Under the pieces are notes generated by a model. The model was not told the origin of the DNA. It did no database searches and was given only the letters and a program-made list of their open reading frames with translations. From positions 1 through 38,537 of the forward strand of contig JAKAYT010000011.1 in the NCBI GenBank assembly GCA_021826685.1: a DNA stretch of 38,537 nucleotides. The letters are read 5' to 3'. Positions 20,299 through 26,884 of the stretch are shown one piece after another. This stretch comes from Thermoplasmata archaeon (lineage in GTDB: Archaea > Thermoplasmatota > Thermoplasmata > Lutacidiplasmatales > UBA184). Made by a program: the position numbers and the translations under genes. Positions within the stretch are counted from its first letter, which is position 1; the number at the start of each line of letters is the position of its first letter.

Positions 20299-21648
20299 CT
20301 ACGTCGTGGTCCCCGGAGCCGAGCCGCGGGTCGGCCGCGGGCTCCCCTCCGCCGGATCCTTGGCCCGCCCTGCAGGGGACGAACGGAACTGCTGCGCCTC
20401 GGTTGAGCCTTCGAGCGCGAGCGTCGACGTGAGTCCGCCGGAGAGGACCTGGGCGACGTCGTCGAAGTAGTCCGTCCCGACGAAACTCTGGTGCTTGACC
20501 GCACGGTACCCGGATCCCTCGACGGCGAACTCCTCCTCCTGGAGGTCGGAATAGGCGAGCATCCCGCGGGTCTTGTAGTCCGCCGCGAGCCGGAACGCCG
20601 AGAGGTTCACGGCGTGGAATCCCGCGAGCGTGACGAACTGGAACTTGTAGCCGAGCTGGGCGAGGTCCGACTGGAACCGACCGATCTCCTGCTCGCCGAG
20701 CCGGCGACGCCAGTTGAACGACGGAGAGAGGTTGTAGGCCAGCAACTTGCCCGGGTACCTCGCGTGGACGGCGTCCGCGAAGGCCCGCGCCTCGTCGAGA
20801 TCGGGGCCCGACGTCTCGAACCAGAGCATGTCGGCGTACGGAGCGTAGGCGATCCCGCGGGCGATCGCCGAGTCGATCCCCGGGCGGATCCCGAAGAATC
20901 CTTCGGTCGTACGCTCCCCGGTGATGAACTCCTGATCCCGGGGATCGACGTCGCTCGTCAGGAGCTTCGCGGAGTGGGCATCGGTGCGTGCGATGATGAC
21001 CGTAGGGACGTCCAGAATGTCGGCGGCGAGGCGGGCCGCCCATAGCTTCTGGTTGAACTCGCGCGTCGGGACAAGGACCTTGCCCCCCATGTGCCCGCAC
21101 TTCTTCACCGAGGCGAGCTGATCCTCGATGTGCAGGCCGGCGGCCCCGGCTTCGATCAGCGCCTTGGTGAGCTCGAAGACGTTGAGCGTGCCACCGAACC
21201 CGGCTTCTGCGTCGGCGACAATCGGGGCGTACCAGTAGGTGGCCCCTGCACCGGACGCGTGCTGCTTTTCGTCCTGGCGACGGAAGGCATTATTGATTCG
21301 ACGAACCAAGGTCGGCATGCTGAGCGCGGGATAGAGGCTCTGGTCCGGGTACGTTTGGCCCGCGTCGTTGGCATCGGCCGCGACCTGCCAGCCGCTCGCG
21401 TAGATGGCCAGGAGGCCCGCCTGCACCATCTGGACGGCCTGGCTCCCGTTCATCGCGCCCAGCGCCGGGACGTACTCTTCGTTCTCGAGCAGTTGCCAGA
21501 GCCGGCGCGCACCGACGTCGGCGAGCGTATGCTCGATCCGGATCGAACCCCGCAGGCGTGCGACGTCCTCGGGGCGGTACGGTCGCTGCGTGCGCTTCCA
21601 GCGCGCCGCCTGGGACCAATCGTCCGCGAGCTCTTTCGCGTCCTTCAT
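20299..21648 (-). CDS. aceA: Isocitrate lyase (glyoxylate bypass)
   Basis: A 449-aa enzyme that splits isocitrate into succinate and glyoxylate. The catalytic motif K182-K-C184-G-H186 is followed by MGGKVLVP, and the metal/substrate segments [23 protein letters not shown] and [10 protein letters not shown] are intact. The C-terminal region includes [11 protein letters not shown] and [11 protein letters not shown]. Length matches bacterial-type isocitrate lyases (about 430-450 aa). The ATG at 21648 overlaps the aceB stop as ATGA, so synthase and lyase are made together. The last about 30 residues are a Pro/Ser/Thr-rich tail with little conservation. Confidence 0.96.
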
Positions 21649-23285
21649 GAGGGGTCCGCCGGAACCGTCGGCTCCAGTACACGGTAGGCCGAGTTGGTAA
21701 AATACTCTTGGAAGGCCGTACTCGCCACCAATCCTTCCATCAGACCCGCGGCCGCCGCGATCGTGGAGGTCGGCCCCCCCTCCCGGGTCCGCTCCGCGCG
21801 CACTCGCTGCGCCTCCGTGGCGATCGCCTCGACGATGTAGGGGATCGTGACCGCTTCGCCCGAAGCGAGGCGGACCCTTCGATGGGCCCACTGCCAAAGC
21901 TGGGCACGAGCGATCTCGACCGTGGCGGCATCTTCCATGCGGTGATCGATCGGAACGCATCCGACCCCTCGCAACCACGACTCGAGGTAGCGAACCGCCA
22001 CTCGGACGTTCGTTCGGATCCCGTCCTCGGTCACGGGTCCGACGGGGATCTCGAGGAGATCCTCGGGACGGACGGGCTCGGGGAGAGGACGACGGTCGAT
22101 CTGGTTCGGTCCGGGCATCCGGGCGTCGAAGGCGCGTTGCGCGACCGCGACGAGCCCGGGGTGGGCGACCCACGTACCGTCGTGGCCGAGGGCCACCTCG
22201 CGCTCCTTGTCCGCGAGGACGGCCGCCATCGCCGCCTCGTTCGCCGAAGGGTCCGACCGGAGGGGGATCTGCGCCGCCATTCCGCCGATCGCGTGCGCGC
22301 CACGTCGGTGACATATTCGGATGAGGTGGCGGACGTAGGCGCGTAGGAAGGGCCGGTCCATCGTGAGCTCCGAGCGATCGGGAAAGATCGCCGACGCGTC
22401 GTCCCGGAACTGCTTGAGGAAGCTGAAGATGTAGTCCCAACGGCCGCAGTTCAGCCCGGCGGAGTGCTCGCGAAGGGCATACAGAATCTCCTCCGCCTCG
22501 AAGACGGCGGGCAGGGTCTCGATCAGGACCGTCGCGCGAATCGTCCCGCGCGGGAGCCCCCCGCGGTCCTCGCTGAACCGGAAGACGTCGTCCCAGAGCT
22601 CGGCCTCGGGAAAATGCTCGATCTTGGGCAGGTAGAAGTACGGGCGGTGGCCCCGCGCGACCAGTTCGCGCGAGGTATGGAAGAAGTAGATCCCGAAGTC
22701 GAAGAGGCTCGCCGAGACCGGCCGGCCGTCAACCGTTACGTGGCGTTCGTCCAGGTGCCAACCGCGAGGACGGACGAACAGCACGGCCGGGCGGTCCCCA
22801 AGAGTGAGACGTACCCCGTCGGGACCGACGTCCTCGATCGTTCCTCGGACGGCGTCGATGAGGTTCGCTTGTCCCTCGACCGTCCGTGCCCACACGGGAG
22901 AGTGCGAGTCCTCGAAGTCCGCCATGTAGACGCGGGCGCCGGAGTTGAGCGCGTGGATCACCATCCGCCGATCGGTGGGTCCCGTGATCTCGACACGTCG
23001 GTCGACGATATCGTCCGGAGGGGGCGCGACATTCCACTCTCCCTCTCGGAGGGCACGCGTCGCTTCGGGAAAGGACGGCCGATGCCCTCGGACGAGGTCC
23101 TCGTGAAACCGTGCGCGGTGGGCGAGGAGCTCTTGGCGGCGATCCTCGAAGCGCGCCGCGAGCTCGCCGACGAAGCGAAGAGCGTTCGGCGTCAACACGT
23201 CATCCGCTGCAAGCACGGGCGGCCCGACGACACGCAGGCGGTCCGGGAACGCCGCGTCGACGGGCCGGTTGGGCGAGCCGTCCAT
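21645..23285 (-). CDS. aceB: Malate synthase A (glyoxylate bypass)
   Basis: A 546-aa enzyme that condenses glyoxylate and acetyl-CoA to malate. It has the A-isoform length and motifs: [75 protein letters not shown] and GGMAAQIP, with [11 protein letters not shown] near the acetyl-CoA site. The ATG at 23285 lies about 35 nt after a minus-strand AATTTA box, so a short leader is expected. It is first in an aceB-aceA operon. Together the two allow net growth on acetate or fatty-acid-derived acetyl-CoA. Confidence 0.96.
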
Positions 23286-23355: not shown

Positions 23356-23455
23356 CGGGCTTGCTGGGAGTTTCGTCACGGATTCCACCGCGATTTCGAA
23401 CCCAGGTCGTTGGCTTCGAAGGCCAACAGGATAGTCCAGACTACCCCACAAGCCC
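23356..23455 (-). tRNA. tRNA-Arg (anticodon UCG) with a T-loop intron
   Basis: The minus strand folds as a complete tRNA once 25 nt are removed. The acceptor stem GGGCTTG/CAAGCCC has discriminator G and no encoded CCA. The D-arm contains the conserved AGTCTGGA stretch with GG. The anticodon stem TTGGC/GCCAA has loop CTTCGAA, giving U33 and anticodon UCG (reads CGA, Arg). The T-stem is CTGGG/CCCAG. As encoded, the T-loop is 32 nt long; excising positions 23394-23370 leaves the canonical CTGGGTTCGAATCCCAG. The gene lies 10 bp after polC, with a TATA-like AAATAC about 26 nt upstream, inside the polC 3' end. The only weak point is the D-stem (G-U at 10-25, U-U at 13-22), which is acceptable in archaeal tRNAs. 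Confidence 0.85.
23370..23394 (-). other. tRNA intron at position 59/60 with bulge-helix-bulge motif
   Basis: A 25-nt intron. Around it the RNA forms the substrate of the archaeal splicing endonuclease: outer helix CTGGG/CCCAG (the T-stem), then a 4-bp central helix TTCG/CGAA. A 3-nt bulge AAA lies on the 5' side and a 3-nt bulge ACT on the 3' side, with an inner stem TCGCGG/CCGTGA (one G-U pair) capped by TGGAAT. Cutting after the second base of each bulge removes exactly 25 nt and restores a 7-nt T-loop. Confidence 0.82.
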
Positions 23456-23464
23456 GCAGGCGCG

Positions 23465-26400
23465 TTAGCGGGGCTCGCGTATTTGGGGGTTGTCGTGCGA
23501 CGGGCCGGCGGCGTCGGTCGCTGCGAACGACTCGAGCGTCGTTTGCTCGTCCGAACCGGGGAACAGGGTTCCGAGCGACTGCGTCAGGATCTCGACGCGC
23601 TGGCGCAGGTACGGAGGCACACCCTCGGCGGCGCCCAGGTGCGCGCTCAGGGCGAGGTACTTCCGGATCATGCCTTCGTAGACCGTCGGCAGGAGCTCCC
23701 CATCGCACGGGCTCGATCCGCGCCCGACGGCGGTGCATCGGCCCGAGAGAGGAGGTCGTCGGTAGCTCGTTCCGCAGGTCTTGCATCGGAACTTCTGCGT
23801 CGCGAAGCTGCGCAGGTTTCCCATCGCGTCGGGCAGGAAGTGCGTGGTCAGTATGCTCGCGATCGCTTCGGCCGCATCGACCGACCGGATCTGGTTCATC
23901 AGCGTCACCGACTGTTCGACCATATCGCTCATCGCGCGTCCGTCGCGACCGGCCGATCGGACCGGGCCACGGGCGATGTCGCGTGTATCGTGCGTGAAGG
24001 CGTAGAGATCGAGGGTGTGCGCGCCGCCGAGCCGGTGACCGACGGTGTCGAAAAGTGCCTCGACGTCCTTCGCGTTCGCCCGCCGCGCGGCGGCCCGGTA
24101 GAACTCGAGCGGGTAGCGGTCATTGAGGTCGAGGTGATGCGCCTCCTTGTCGACCTCGGTCGCGTCCAGGCGCGTCGTGAGGACGAGCGGCTTGTCCATC
24201 ATCGCCCCGCGCGTCTCGGGCAGGTACGCTCGGGAGAAGTTCAGCAGAGCGTCCAACAGGAGGGTGACGGAGTCCTCGTCGCCGTCGCAGTTCCGTCGCT
24301 TGGCCGCGTGGAAGATCGGGTGCGCGAAGCACGCCTCGGCCTCGGAGAAGCCGATGATGCGGCCCGCGACCGCGCCCGACGTGTGCGGCGCGAGGGCCGC
24401 GACGACCGCCCCGACGAGGTCCTCCGGGACCCGGGCCCGGTAGAAAGGGCTGAGCCCGTAGAGGTGGACGAGCTCGTCGTCGAGGAATTGGGACAGATGG
24501 AGGAGATACCGGCCGCACGATCGCGCCACGATGATGTCCTGCGGCCGCAGCTCGACCAGCTGATCGCTCCGTTCGAGCGGTCGGCCCGCCCAATCCTGGG
24601 TGTAGCCGAGCTCGCGGAGGCGCGCGATCTCCGTACCGATCTCGATTGGGCGGAAGTGGGTGAGCGGCAGGTCCATTAGGTCGAAGCGCGCGGTACCATC
24701 CTGGTAGACCGAGATCGCGTGCTCCGCCCGTAGGATGGCCTTTTCGATCGGTTCGGGGGTATGCCCCGCCGAAGTGAGTCCCTTGACTCCCTTGACCTGG
24801 GGGACGCGGTTGAGCCGGAGCCGTTGCAGCGCATCCCCCCAGAGTTCGTCGACCGGGAACGCGACCTGGATGGTGGTCCCGTTCGCTACCGTGTGCGCTC
24901 CGCAGGAACACCGGGGCCAGACCGAGCTCCGGGAGCACACCGGACATAGCCGGACCCCGAGTTGCGTCTGGACGGGCTGGCCCTTCATCGCGCGTCGGAC
25001 CGCCTCTCCGACGGATCGCGAGGGGCCCCCGGCCTCGCCCACGGGGAAGAGGCCGTGGACGTTCGGCTGCATCTTGCGCTGGTACGCTTTCTCGGGTCGA
25101 CCCACGCGTGCACCGACCCGGGAAGGGCTGCGAGGCATGACGGTCGCGCCGGCGAGCCGGCTCACGTAGGCGAGCGGATCCGGGTCGACCGGGTCGAGAA
25201 GGGTCTTGCGTACGAGGAGGCCGCCGACGATCTCGAGGCCGAGCGTGCCGACGAGAGCCTCGCTGGTTTCGGGCTCGCCGAGCACTTGTCCCGTAGGCCC
25301 ACGCGTGTGCAGGAACCCCAGGCGGGCGAGCAGCTCGCGCCAGACCTCGTCCCAAGGAAGCTCGAGCCGCCCGTCCCGCCAGGCCCCGGATCGCTCGACC
25401 TGCTCCGCGAGGGCCCGGATCTCCGCACTCGTGAGATCGTGCCAGAAGAGCAGCCACCGCGGGTGCAGTGGTACGCGGTAGCGTCGGGCGAGGGCGAGCG
25501 ACACGGCAAAGCTCTCCGCCCCCGCTCCCTCGGTCGCCGGCGCGCCCGCGGCGCGCAGCTCCTCTTCGTGCCAGTCCACCGTATAGGTTCCCGGCACGAG
25601 CGCGCGGTTGTTCTCGAGAAATTCCCCATAGGCGACGAGGATTTCCCCCAGATCGACGATCCGACGGATCTGCGGAAGGAGCGCTTCGGCCCGATCGACA
25701 TCGTGGACCGCCGTCACCGTACCATCGGAGAGTTCGACGATCGGCCCTTCGAGCAGATCGCAGATACCCATCGCGGCCGCCTTGCCCGGGTACTCGAGCT
25801 TGAGCTGGGTCCCGACGGCCACGAAATGCCGAAGAAGGACCATCGTCGCCGGGTTGATCGCGCACGCCGCGAGGCCCGTAGTTCGTGCGCGGCCGTAGAC
25901 GAGCCGAAACCCACCGGGCCGGTTCGGGTGCGCGAGGATCGGTCGCCCACCGACGCCGGCGTCGGCGAGGTACTTCGCCACCGAGCCGTCCTCCTCGTGC
26001 GCGGTCGAGTGCCCGAGATCGTTCAAGAACTCCCAATCTGGGATGGCGAGTTTGTCGACGATCCGTTTGATCTTCGAAGCCTTCTGACACATCCCTTCCG
26101 CGATGACGAGGCAGGCACCGCCGCGGATCCCGTTCGTCTTCACGCGATCGAGATTGCGGAACGCGCTGACCTCGGCGTCGCCCTCCGTCGCCTCGCCCGA
26201 AATGCAGACAGGAACGTGCCGCACGACCGTCGAGATCTCCTCGGGTGTCGGGACGTACTGGAGGTGCTGGAAATGCTTGTAGAGAGGGATCTCCTCCTGG
26301 TAGCGCCCGATCTCCTCGTGCGACGCACGGTAGGCAGCGAGGTGGAGGTCCCGGCGGATCACGTCGGCGAGCAGCACGCTCAGTGCCTGGGCGGTGCCAC

Positions 26401-26884
26401 CGGCCGCGCGGATGGGGCCGGCATAGTACAATTCGATGAACCTTCCCTCGGGGCCGTCGACGAGGTGGACCTCGGCGAGTCCCTCGAGCGGGGCGACGAG
26501 AATCCCTTCGGTCAGGATCGCGAGGCCGACACGCAGGGCGGCTTCGACACGTCGGGCGACACTCCCCGGCCGGCTCGTGTCGCTCGCGAGACGGCGGGCG
26601 ATCGCCACCGCCACCTCCTCCCGCGGCATCGCCCGGGCGAGGGTGCGGATCTCGTCGGCGATCCCATCGATGCCGAGGTGGGCCAGCAGCTTCTCGACCC
26701 GGCTCGCCATGTCCTGGGCACGGGGAATCTCCGGACGGGTCTCGGGGTCGATGCCGAGGCTGCGGGCGCGCTCGGCCACGGAATAACCCCGTTCGATCTC
26801 GCCCTCGATCGCCCGGAAATACGCTTCCACACCAGGGCCAAACGGGCGAGACCGATAAGGACCCGGCCACCACGCGTCGCCCAC
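23465..26884 (-). CDS. polC: DNA polymerase D (II) large catalytic subunit DP2
   Basis: A 1139-aa archaeal replicative polymerase subunit. It starts with the DP2 N-terminal domain (YFRAIEGEIERGYSVAERARSLG). The catalytic Asp motif NCDGDEDSV is at 865-873 (D867 and D869). Conserved blocks include ELYYAGPIRAAGGTAQALSVL, GIRGGACLVIAEGMCQKA and RMGRPEKA-like GARVGRPEKAYQRKMQPNVHGLFP. Zinc clusters appear at CPVCSRSSVWPRCSCG and FRCKTCGTSYRRP with a later Cys pair. Length is typical and no intein interrupts it. The start is GTG 26884; a minus-strand TATATGA at about 26930 supports a promoter with a short leader. DP1 (polB) is not in the window. Confidence 0.95.
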   Translation of the reverse strand: MGDAWWPGPYRSRPFGPGVEAYFRAIEGEIERGYSVAERARSLGIDPETRPEIPRAQDMASRVEKLLAHLGIDGIADEIRTLARAMPREEVAVAIARRLASDTSRPGSVARRVEAALRVGLAILTEGILVAPLEGLAEVHLVDGPEGRFIELYYAGPIRAAGGTAQALSVLLADVIRRDLHLAAYRASHEEIGRYQEEIPLYKHFQHLQYVPTPEEISTVVRHVPVCISGEATEGDAEVSAFRNLDRVKTNGIRGGACLVIAEGMCQKASKIKRIVDKLAIPDWEFLNDLGHSTAHEEDGSVAKYLADAGVGGRPILAHPNRPGGFRLVYGRARTTGLAACAINPATMVLLRHFVAVGTQLKLEYPGKAAAMGICDLLEGPIVELSDGTVTAVHDVDRAEALLPQIRRIVDLGEILVAYGEFLENNRALVPGTYTVDWHEEELRAAGAPATEGAGAESFAVSLALARRYRVPLHPRWLLFWHDLTSAEIRALAEQVERSGAWRDGRLELPWDEVWRELLARLGFLHTRGPTGQVLGEPETSEALVGTLGLEIVGGLLVRKTLLDPVDPDPLAYVSRLAGATVMPRSPSRVGARVGRPEKAYQRKMQPNVHGLFPVGEAGGPSRSVGEAVRRAMKGQPVQTQLGVRLCPVCSRSSVWPRCSCGAHTVANGTTIQVAFPVDELWGDALQRLRLNRVPQVKGVKGLTSAGHTPEPIEKAILRAEHAISVYQDGTARFDLMDLPLTHFRPIEIGTEIARLRELGYTQDWAGRPLERSDQLVELRPQDIIVARSCGRYLLHLSQFLDDELVHLYGLSPFYRARVPEDLVGAVVAALAPHTSGAVAGRIIGFSEAEACFAHPIFHAAKRRNCDGDEDSVTLLLDALLNFSRAYLPETRGAMMDKPLVLTTRLDATEVDKEAHHLDLNDRYPLEFYRAAARRANAKDVEALFDTVGHRLGGAHTLDLYAFTHDTRDIARGPVRSAGRDGRAMSDMVEQSVTLMNQIRSVDAAEAIASILTTHFLPDAMGNLRSFATQKFRCKTCGTSYRRPPLSGRCTAVGRGSSPCDGELLPTVYEGMIRKYLALSAHLGAAEGVPPYLRQRVEILTQSLGTLFPGSDEQTTLESFAATDAAGPSHDNPQIREPR
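23479..23484 (-). promoter_or_regulatory. Candidate TATA box for tRNA-Arg inside the polC 3' end
   Basis: Minus-strand AAATAC centred about 26 nt before the first tRNA base, within the last codons of polC. It would let the tRNA be transcribed independently of polC. Confidence 0.4.

Follow-up and report, generated by a model that had tools for sequence, protein, structure and literature searches.

The tRNA-Arg(UCG) gene and its intron

The stretch of DNA that was analysed (38,537 nucleotides, hereafter "the window") carries on its minus strand a tRNA-Arg(UCG) gene, located between the gene of the DNA polymerase D large subunit (DP2) and the gene of malate synthase A; the T loop of this tRNA is interrupted by an intron, with a bulge-helix-bulge (BHB) motif at the borders. 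The features of the locus are as follows:

23465..26884, minus strand: DP2, upstream of the tRNA and co-directional with it; 9 nt separate the end of its stop codon from the tRNA
23480..23486, minus strand: TATA-like CCAAATA, within the 3' end (last codons) of the DP2 gene; AAATA starts 29 nt upstream of the tRNA
23356..23455, minus strand: tRNA-Arg(UCG) gene, 100-nt precursor (permissive Rfam search, fold, ARAGORN on the spliced form, placement by hand)
23395..23455, minus strand: 5' exon, positions 1-59, 61 nt, first part of the precursor
23417..23419, minus strand: anticodon TCG (ARAGORN on the spliced sequence, and placement)
23397..23400, minus strand: 5' strand of the central helix, i.e. 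T-loop bases 54-57 (TTCG), paired in 29 of 29 copies
23394..23396, minus strand: 5' bulge AAA, predicted cut after the second base (placement and BHB cutting rule)
23370..23394, minus strand: intron at 59/60, 25 nt (alignment, covariation and placement)
23388..23393, minus strand: 5' strand of the inner helix h' (both sides changed in all six pairs, n = 29 copies)
23376..23381, minus strand: 3' strand of the inner helix h' (covariation in the same 29-copy alignment)
23372..23375, minus strand: 3' strand of the central helix (CGAA), internal to the intron (sequence reading and alignment)
23369..23371, minus strand: 3' bulge ACT, predicted cut after the second base (placement and BHB cutting rule)
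23356..23369, minus strand: 3' exon, position 60 to the discriminator, 14 nt
21645..23285, minus strand: malate synthase A, downstream of the tRNA

In a BHB motif, cleavage occurs after the second base of each 3-nt bulge. The motif of the tRNA-Arg(UCG) precursor is strict: a central helix of 4 bp lies between two 3-nt bulges, with the T stem (CTGGG/CCCAG) as the outer helix and six pairs, one of them G-U, in the inner helix. The preliminary description of the window had placed here a tRNA-Arg(UCG) with a 25-nt T-loop intron, the removal of which joins 23395 to 23369; these coordinates are correct to the base, the TTCG/CGAA helix and the bulges AAA and ACT are seen as it claimed, with the minimum-energy fold in agreement, and the identity of the gene is borne out by ARAGORN, which calls tRNA-Arg(tcg) in the spliced sequence but not in the unspliced one, so that a complete tRNA is restored by the removal of the intron. 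The warning that standard scanners may miss the gene was justified for two common tools: ARAGORN finds zero tRNAs in the whole window, Rfam yields zero matches in the window at its cut-off, and the unspliced gene reaches 18.8 bits in a permissive Rfam search, against a cut-off of 29. Such a poor score, together with the blindness of ARAGORN to the gene, would also suit a tRNA pseudogene disrupted by a chance insertion, a reading to which we return with the alignment of the genus.

The lowest-energy fold of the precursor (window positions 23358-23456) combines the cloverleaf with the predicted bulge-helix-bulge, at -42.4 kcal/mol (z -3.6), and 1 of 200 shuffled sequences folds as well. When random 25-mers of the window were placed at the intron site, 58 of 200,000 gave both a 4-bp central helix and six inner pairs; when the two strands of the window were scanned for a T stem, TTCRA, a central helix and at least five inner pairs, the tRNA-Arg(UCG) site was the only one returned. 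A precursor fold of this stability would also be at home in a tRNA that keeps the insert, as an extended T arm, in its mature form; against this, the bulges occur exactly where cutting restores TTCGAAT, the tRNA-Arg(TCG) of four genomes (G043, G082, G062 and G422) has no insert, and an insert retained in the T loop would disturb the contact between the D loop and the T loop, all of which makes a retained insert highly improbable.

The order of the exons is normal, the 3' half not being located upstream of the 5' half, and the gene is therefore not a permuted tRNA. CGA, the codon that corresponds to the anticodon, accounts for 57 of the 3,580 codons of five open reading frames of the window. 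The TATA-like element probably serves as the promoter of the tRNA gene; AAATA occurs about 29 nt upstream of the tRNA in 28 of 29 loci of the genus.

Conservation of the intron in the genus

We have searched for the tRNA-Arg(UCG) gene in 61 genomes, i.e. the host genome and its relatives, and of the 37 genomes that belong to the genus, 30 have a strong match, the host included; the other seven genomes of the genus are 57-80% complete. Our alignment comprises the 29 full-length copies (L031-L059), one further copy (L060) being excluded as cut by a contig end. The survey of sister genomes, which had been proposed as a check, found the intron kept in 29 of the 29 aligned copies, with a length of 23-34 nt. 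The mean pairwise identity is 96% in the exons and 61% in the introns, where it falls to a minimum of 17%. The central helix is paired in 100% of the cells of the alignment and varies on one side only, the other strand being the T loop; the inner helix is paired in 90.2% of the cells, and all six of its pairs have changes on both sides. Across the whole structure, 46 double-change cells are counted versus 14.0 in shuffles, with 0 of 500 shuffles as high, and 0-15 are counted on sliding the pairing partners. A D-stem pair assumed at columns 13-25 has no standard pairing in any of the 29 copies.

These observations bear on two alternative readings. A pseudogene would not be expected to keep exons 96% identical over 29 genomes, or its inner helix through compensatory changes; in addition, a second tRNA-Arg(UCG) gene, sought as the preliminary description had suggested, is absent from the 36 tRNA genes located in the 90%-complete host genome, and the point of insertion is shared with 11 other tRNAs of that genome, so that we attach next to no probability to a broken gene. 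An intron with a function of its own, for example as guide RNA or as a site for a protein, would agree with its presence in every aligned copy of the genus; its sequence, however, is free, its length varies, and what is kept is mainly the pairing, which leaves a separate function very unlikely as well. The reading that we consider close to certain is that of a working tRNA-Arg(UCG) gene, the strict-BHB intron of which would be cut out by the splicing endonuclease, with ligation of the exons, as part of a larger set of T-loop introns in the Thermoplasmatota.

Introns of the other tRNA genes in the host genome

The host genome (G000) is a MAG of 1.39 Mb in 60 contigs, 90% complete, in which the window is contig C44. 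The preliminary description expected a euryarchaeal host, and the lineage, Thermoplasmata, is euryarchaeal in the older sense; from a genus shared with listed members, the host would belong to the Lutacidiplasmatales, described as the former Terrestrial Miscellaneous Euryarchaeota Group (PMC9287336). An intron scan with strict pairing missed most T-loop introns in tRNAs with a TTCA loop, and a covariance model, R1, followed by a script based on the T stem, was therefore used; R1 was built from 13 sequences, six of them Arg(TCG), and leans towards that tRNA. The Rfam tRNA model and R1 combined located 36 tRNA genes: 32 in a first search, 24 of them found by the Rfam model at its cut-off, and one and three more in two later searches.

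In total, 17 of the 36 genes contain 18 introns: 12 in the T loop, four in the D loop and two in the anticodon loop. The T-loop introns are all located at 59/60, in Arg(TCG), Glu(CTC), Gln(CTG), Arg(TCT), Asp(GTC), Gly(TCC), Asn(GTT), Ala(GGC), His(GTG), Ser(GGA), Lys(TTT) and Leu(TAG); the genes of tRNA-Gln(CTG) and tRNA-Leu(TAG) adjoin each other (C41:108697-108981). ARAGORN finds 11 of these 12 tRNAs when spliced and three when unspliced: Leu(TAG) is missed even after splicing, while Lys(TTT) is found over a partial span only, owing to its second intron. The central helix is perfect in five of the 12 (Arg(TCG), Gln, Asp, His and Lys) and has one mismatch in seven, six of the type A57-G and one C-C. 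In four (Gln, Asp, His and Ser), only 0-1 contiguous pairs of the inner helix adjoin the 3-nt bulge, and the BHB is relaxed or shifted.

A BHB can be drawn for the D-loop introns of Met, Lys and Arg(GCG); in Pro(TGG), the D-loop intron is recognised by length only, the motif scan having found no BHB. The four D-loop loci (L017, L027, L137 and L237) are located on contigs C32, C22, C14 and C27. Lys(TTT) has two introns, in the D loop and in the T loop, and the same combination in tRNA-Lys was noticed in G018, G001, G029 and several other families. The anticodon-loop introns are one of 35 nt in Tyr (gta), found by ARAGORN with introns allowed, and one of 37 nt in a class II tRNA that is Leu(TAA) by the 37/38 rule and Ser(tga) by ARAGORN; the motif scan found no convincing BHB for either. 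Several anticodons, e.g. those of Cys, Trp, and Ser GCT and CGA, were not found in G000, which may reflect the incompleteness of the genome or harder intron patterns; in G018, T-loop introns are present in Ser(GCT) and, by eye, also in Ser(CGA) and Leu(TAG).

Distribution across the Thermoplasmatota

Of 400 genomes from the class that were searched with R1, 159 had a match at E <= 1e-13. Family f1 accounts for 95 of these (70 of the same genus as the host and 25 from six other genera), each with 2-8 R1 matches among the best nine candidates per genome, and probably no f1 genome is without a match, the first non-matching genome in the kinship-ordered table being located outside f1. E-values by themselves did not suffice for a count across the class: the intronless tRNA-Arg of G043 reached 70.9 bits (E 2.3e-14), and for this reason, outside f1, only sequences that had been read were counted.

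T-loop introns were read in 10 of 11 genomes of one set (f1, f2, f3, f5, f6 and f16), the eleventh, G044 (f8), having only matches of 73-75 nt and no T-loop intron among the matches listed. In a second set they were read in 19 of 22 genomes (f5, f8, f9, f11, f12, f13, f18, f20, f21, f22, f23, f25, f28 and f33), and were not seen in G043, G051 and G062. Altogether, 19 families of the class, f1 included, have T-loop introns. In nine genomes of f15 and f19, all 18 matches at E <= 1e-10 are 73-75 nt long, without a T-loop intron. A search of the phylum with R1 found matches at E <= 1e-14 in 95 of 395 genomes, 14 of them outside the class; nine of these 14 were inspected, and all nine contain T-loop introns. 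By this comparison of sequences, the intron of tRNA-Arg(UCG) is one of a set of T-loop introns spread across the Thermoplasmatota.

Separately, in G038 (f3) several tRNAs combine an anticodon-loop intron with a T-loop intron of 13-14 nt (L088, L101, L160, L161 and L164-L166), and Arg(CCG) in L166 has a long D loop besides.

Similarity of introns in different tRNAs

In one genome, G416, the T-loop introns of different tRNAs (L274, L291 and L317) are similar to each other: the identity is 94% between Asp(GTC) and Arg(CCT), 84% between Glu(CTC) and Arg(CCT), and 82% between Asp and Glu, while 300 shuffles reach 74%; the fourth intron compared, of Gly(TCC), is dissimilar (55-61%). The D arm and the T stem of the Arg tRNA differ from those of Asp and Glu, and intron transfer is therefore the simplest reading; these introns look like copies between tRNA genes. 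In G000, the best pair of introns is 71% identical, versus 73% in 40 shuffles. Genomes of f37 and f55 have, by eye, a similar T-loop intron hairpin of the type TGCAACTTG...AAGTTGC in several isotypes (L275, L276, L279, L296, L303 and L314), a likeness that perhaps reflects older copying.

The splicing endonuclease

The splicing endonuclease of G000 is encoded by a single gene, the one reading frame of which holds two PF01974 units; by unit count it is alpha'2-like. In the C-terminal unit, the segments FRAY, HARYLV and VRK are taken by us as keeping the catalytic Y, H and K. Compared with structure 3p1y, which we take to be the enzyme of A. fulgidus into which a CSL was inserted, the G000 enzyme has no insertion at the CSL loop, and an insertion at this place is found in 0 of 44 aligned Thermoplasmata endonuclease genes. 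The A. fulgidus alpha'2 enzyme (1r0v and 2gjw) matches the G000 protein in one stretch over most of it; the lowest E-value among solved structures belongs to 5x89 of M. kandleri, in three stretches, an enzyme described as heterotetrameric (PMC6379350). Two units are present in 16 of 16 genomes of one set, the first unit of G051 being weak and below the cut-off. In another set, of 29 genomes, 27 have two units (weak in G051, G055 and G059), G062 has one and G147 none.

Of the 44 genes (L079 and 43 other loci), 40 have an insertion of about 10-14 residues in the N-terminal unit, commonly of the form PRGG-x-P-x-K-x-PS-xx-W, but variable, e.g. in f8 and f11. Those that lack the full insertion are the genes of G051 (f15), G062 (f19), and G042 and G055 (f6); f15 and f19 are both without the full insertion and without a T-loop intron in the genomes tested. 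There are two exceptions to this agreement: G042 of f6 lacks the full insertion and has one T-loop intron, and G044 of f8 has the insertion, with only 73-75-nt matches listed. As an explanation of the T-loop introns, the insertion thus offers a correlation only, broken by f6 and by G044, and shared descent may account for it.

Comparison with known intron systems

Position 59/60 is listed among the sites of noncanonical tRNA introns (PMC4090602). The same paper describes Euryarchaeota as having introns in fewer than 10% of their tRNA genes, one in each and canonically located, a pattern that it connects with alpha4 or alpha'2 enzymes; canonical euryarchaeal introns at 37/38 thus come with the enzyme type that G000 has by unit count. 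Noncanonical introns are described as almost exclusive to Crenarchaeota, Thaumarchaeota, Nanoarchaeota, Korarchaeota and three methanogens of the Euryarchaeota having some as well (PMC3218864); newly found ones are described as mostly from Crenarchaeota and Thaumarchaeota, one of the two intron models having also used Euryarchaeota (PMC8450103).

There is a likeness with the Thermoproteota (Crenarchaeota): the motif, the 59/60 position and the tRNAs with two introns are like those of G000, which has many noncanonical introns, with several in one tRNA, as in the Thermoproteales; similar introns in different tRNAs are seen in G416, but not in G000. The host differs in phylum, in having the T loop as the commonest site (12 of 18 introns) and in its enzyme: crenarchaeal enzymes are described as heterotetramers with CSL (PMC6379350), whereas G000 has a single two-unit gene and no CSL insertion. 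ARMAN-1 and ARMAN-2 are also acid-loving archaea with noncanonical introns outside the Crenarchaeota; their epsilon2 enzyme is described as having three units and an ASL loop (PMC12397907), in contrast to the two units of G000, where no insertion occurs at the corresponding place. CSL and ASL are presented as the basis of broad endonuclease specificity (PMC6379350, PMC12397907). In reviews, relaxed and noncanonical introns are associated with heterotetrameric or three-unit enzymes that have a special loop, and the alpha'2 enzymes of Euryarchaeota are regarded as strict. The Asgard Atabeyarchaeia and Freyarchaeia likewise have very many tRNA introns, often noncanonical, but are of a different phylum, with introns in 92-95% of tRNA genes according to PMC11291895, versus 17 of 36 in G000. 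In Methanohalarchaeum (Methanonatronarchaeia), euryarchaeal but of a different class, tRNA-Pyl is reported with one or two BHB introns (PMC9071458). The permuted tRNAs of Thermofilum and Cyanidioschyzon (PMC3218864) have their junction at 59/60, as here, while the exon order of our gene is normal.

No description of T-loop introns in Thermoplasmata or Thermoplasmatota was found in the open literature by title or start of abstract, among the matches listed, although earlier notice may exist in subscription papers, supplements or tRNA databases; the open papers on intron-containing tRNA that mention Thermoplasmata describe no T-loop introns at those mentions. The Lutacidiplasmatales study used tRNAscan-SE, and its main text does not contain the word "intron" (PMC9287336). 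The intron had been called unusual for such a genome: this holds by the literature, but T-loop introns are common in the lineage to which the host belongs.

Interpretation

In the mechanism that we propose, T-loop bases 54-57 and the 3' portion of the intron would pair, forming a strict bulge-helix-bulge on the T stem; the splicing endonuclease would cut both 3-nt bulges of the precursor, and a tRNA ligase would join A59 to U60. Expression, cutting and ligation are thus predicted from the gene and its motif. The homodimeric endonuclease of Ferroplasma, another member of the Thermoplasmata, reportedly cuts minimal BHB substrates (PMC8707768), so that a strict motif outside 37/38 need not trouble an enzyme of this type. 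While the motif of tRNA-Arg(UCG) is itself perfect, a strict enzyme should cut the relaxed T-loop introns of G000 poorly, and the mismatched central helices of seven of its 12 T-loop introns conflict with the published enzyme-intron rule.

The near-invariant TTCRA of the T loop would supply one strand of the central helix, and an intron with a fitting 3' end would thus suit many tRNAs and might spread among them. A broader possibility, which we put forward tentatively and think rather less probable than its opposite, is that the T-loop introns are mobile, with TTCRA as both landing site and half of the motif, that they are copied from tRNA to tRNA, and that the two-unit endonuclease has become permissive through the N-unit insertion, which would be the third solution to have arisen independently, alongside CSL and ASL.

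Taken singly, the tRNA-Arg(UCG) gene is a well-supported case of an intron kind already known. What appears to be new, as judged from the open literature, is a widespread intron set centred on the T loop, with signs of copying in one genome and a supposedly strict two-unit endonuclease that usually has an insertion of its own. The T-loop introns of the Thermoplasmatota provide fresh material on the movement of tRNA introns, and they matter for annotation, since Rfam lists 24 of the 36 tRNA genes of G000 and ARAGORN recovers three of the 12 excised T-loop precursors unspliced. With a large euryarchaeal lineage that has a two-unit enzyme, neither CSL nor ASL, and mostly T-loop introns, many of them imperfect, the enzyme-intron rule becomes directly testable; if the mobile reading were true, the rule by which alpha'2 enzymes restrict introns to strict 37/38 motifs would be false in a large part of the phylum.
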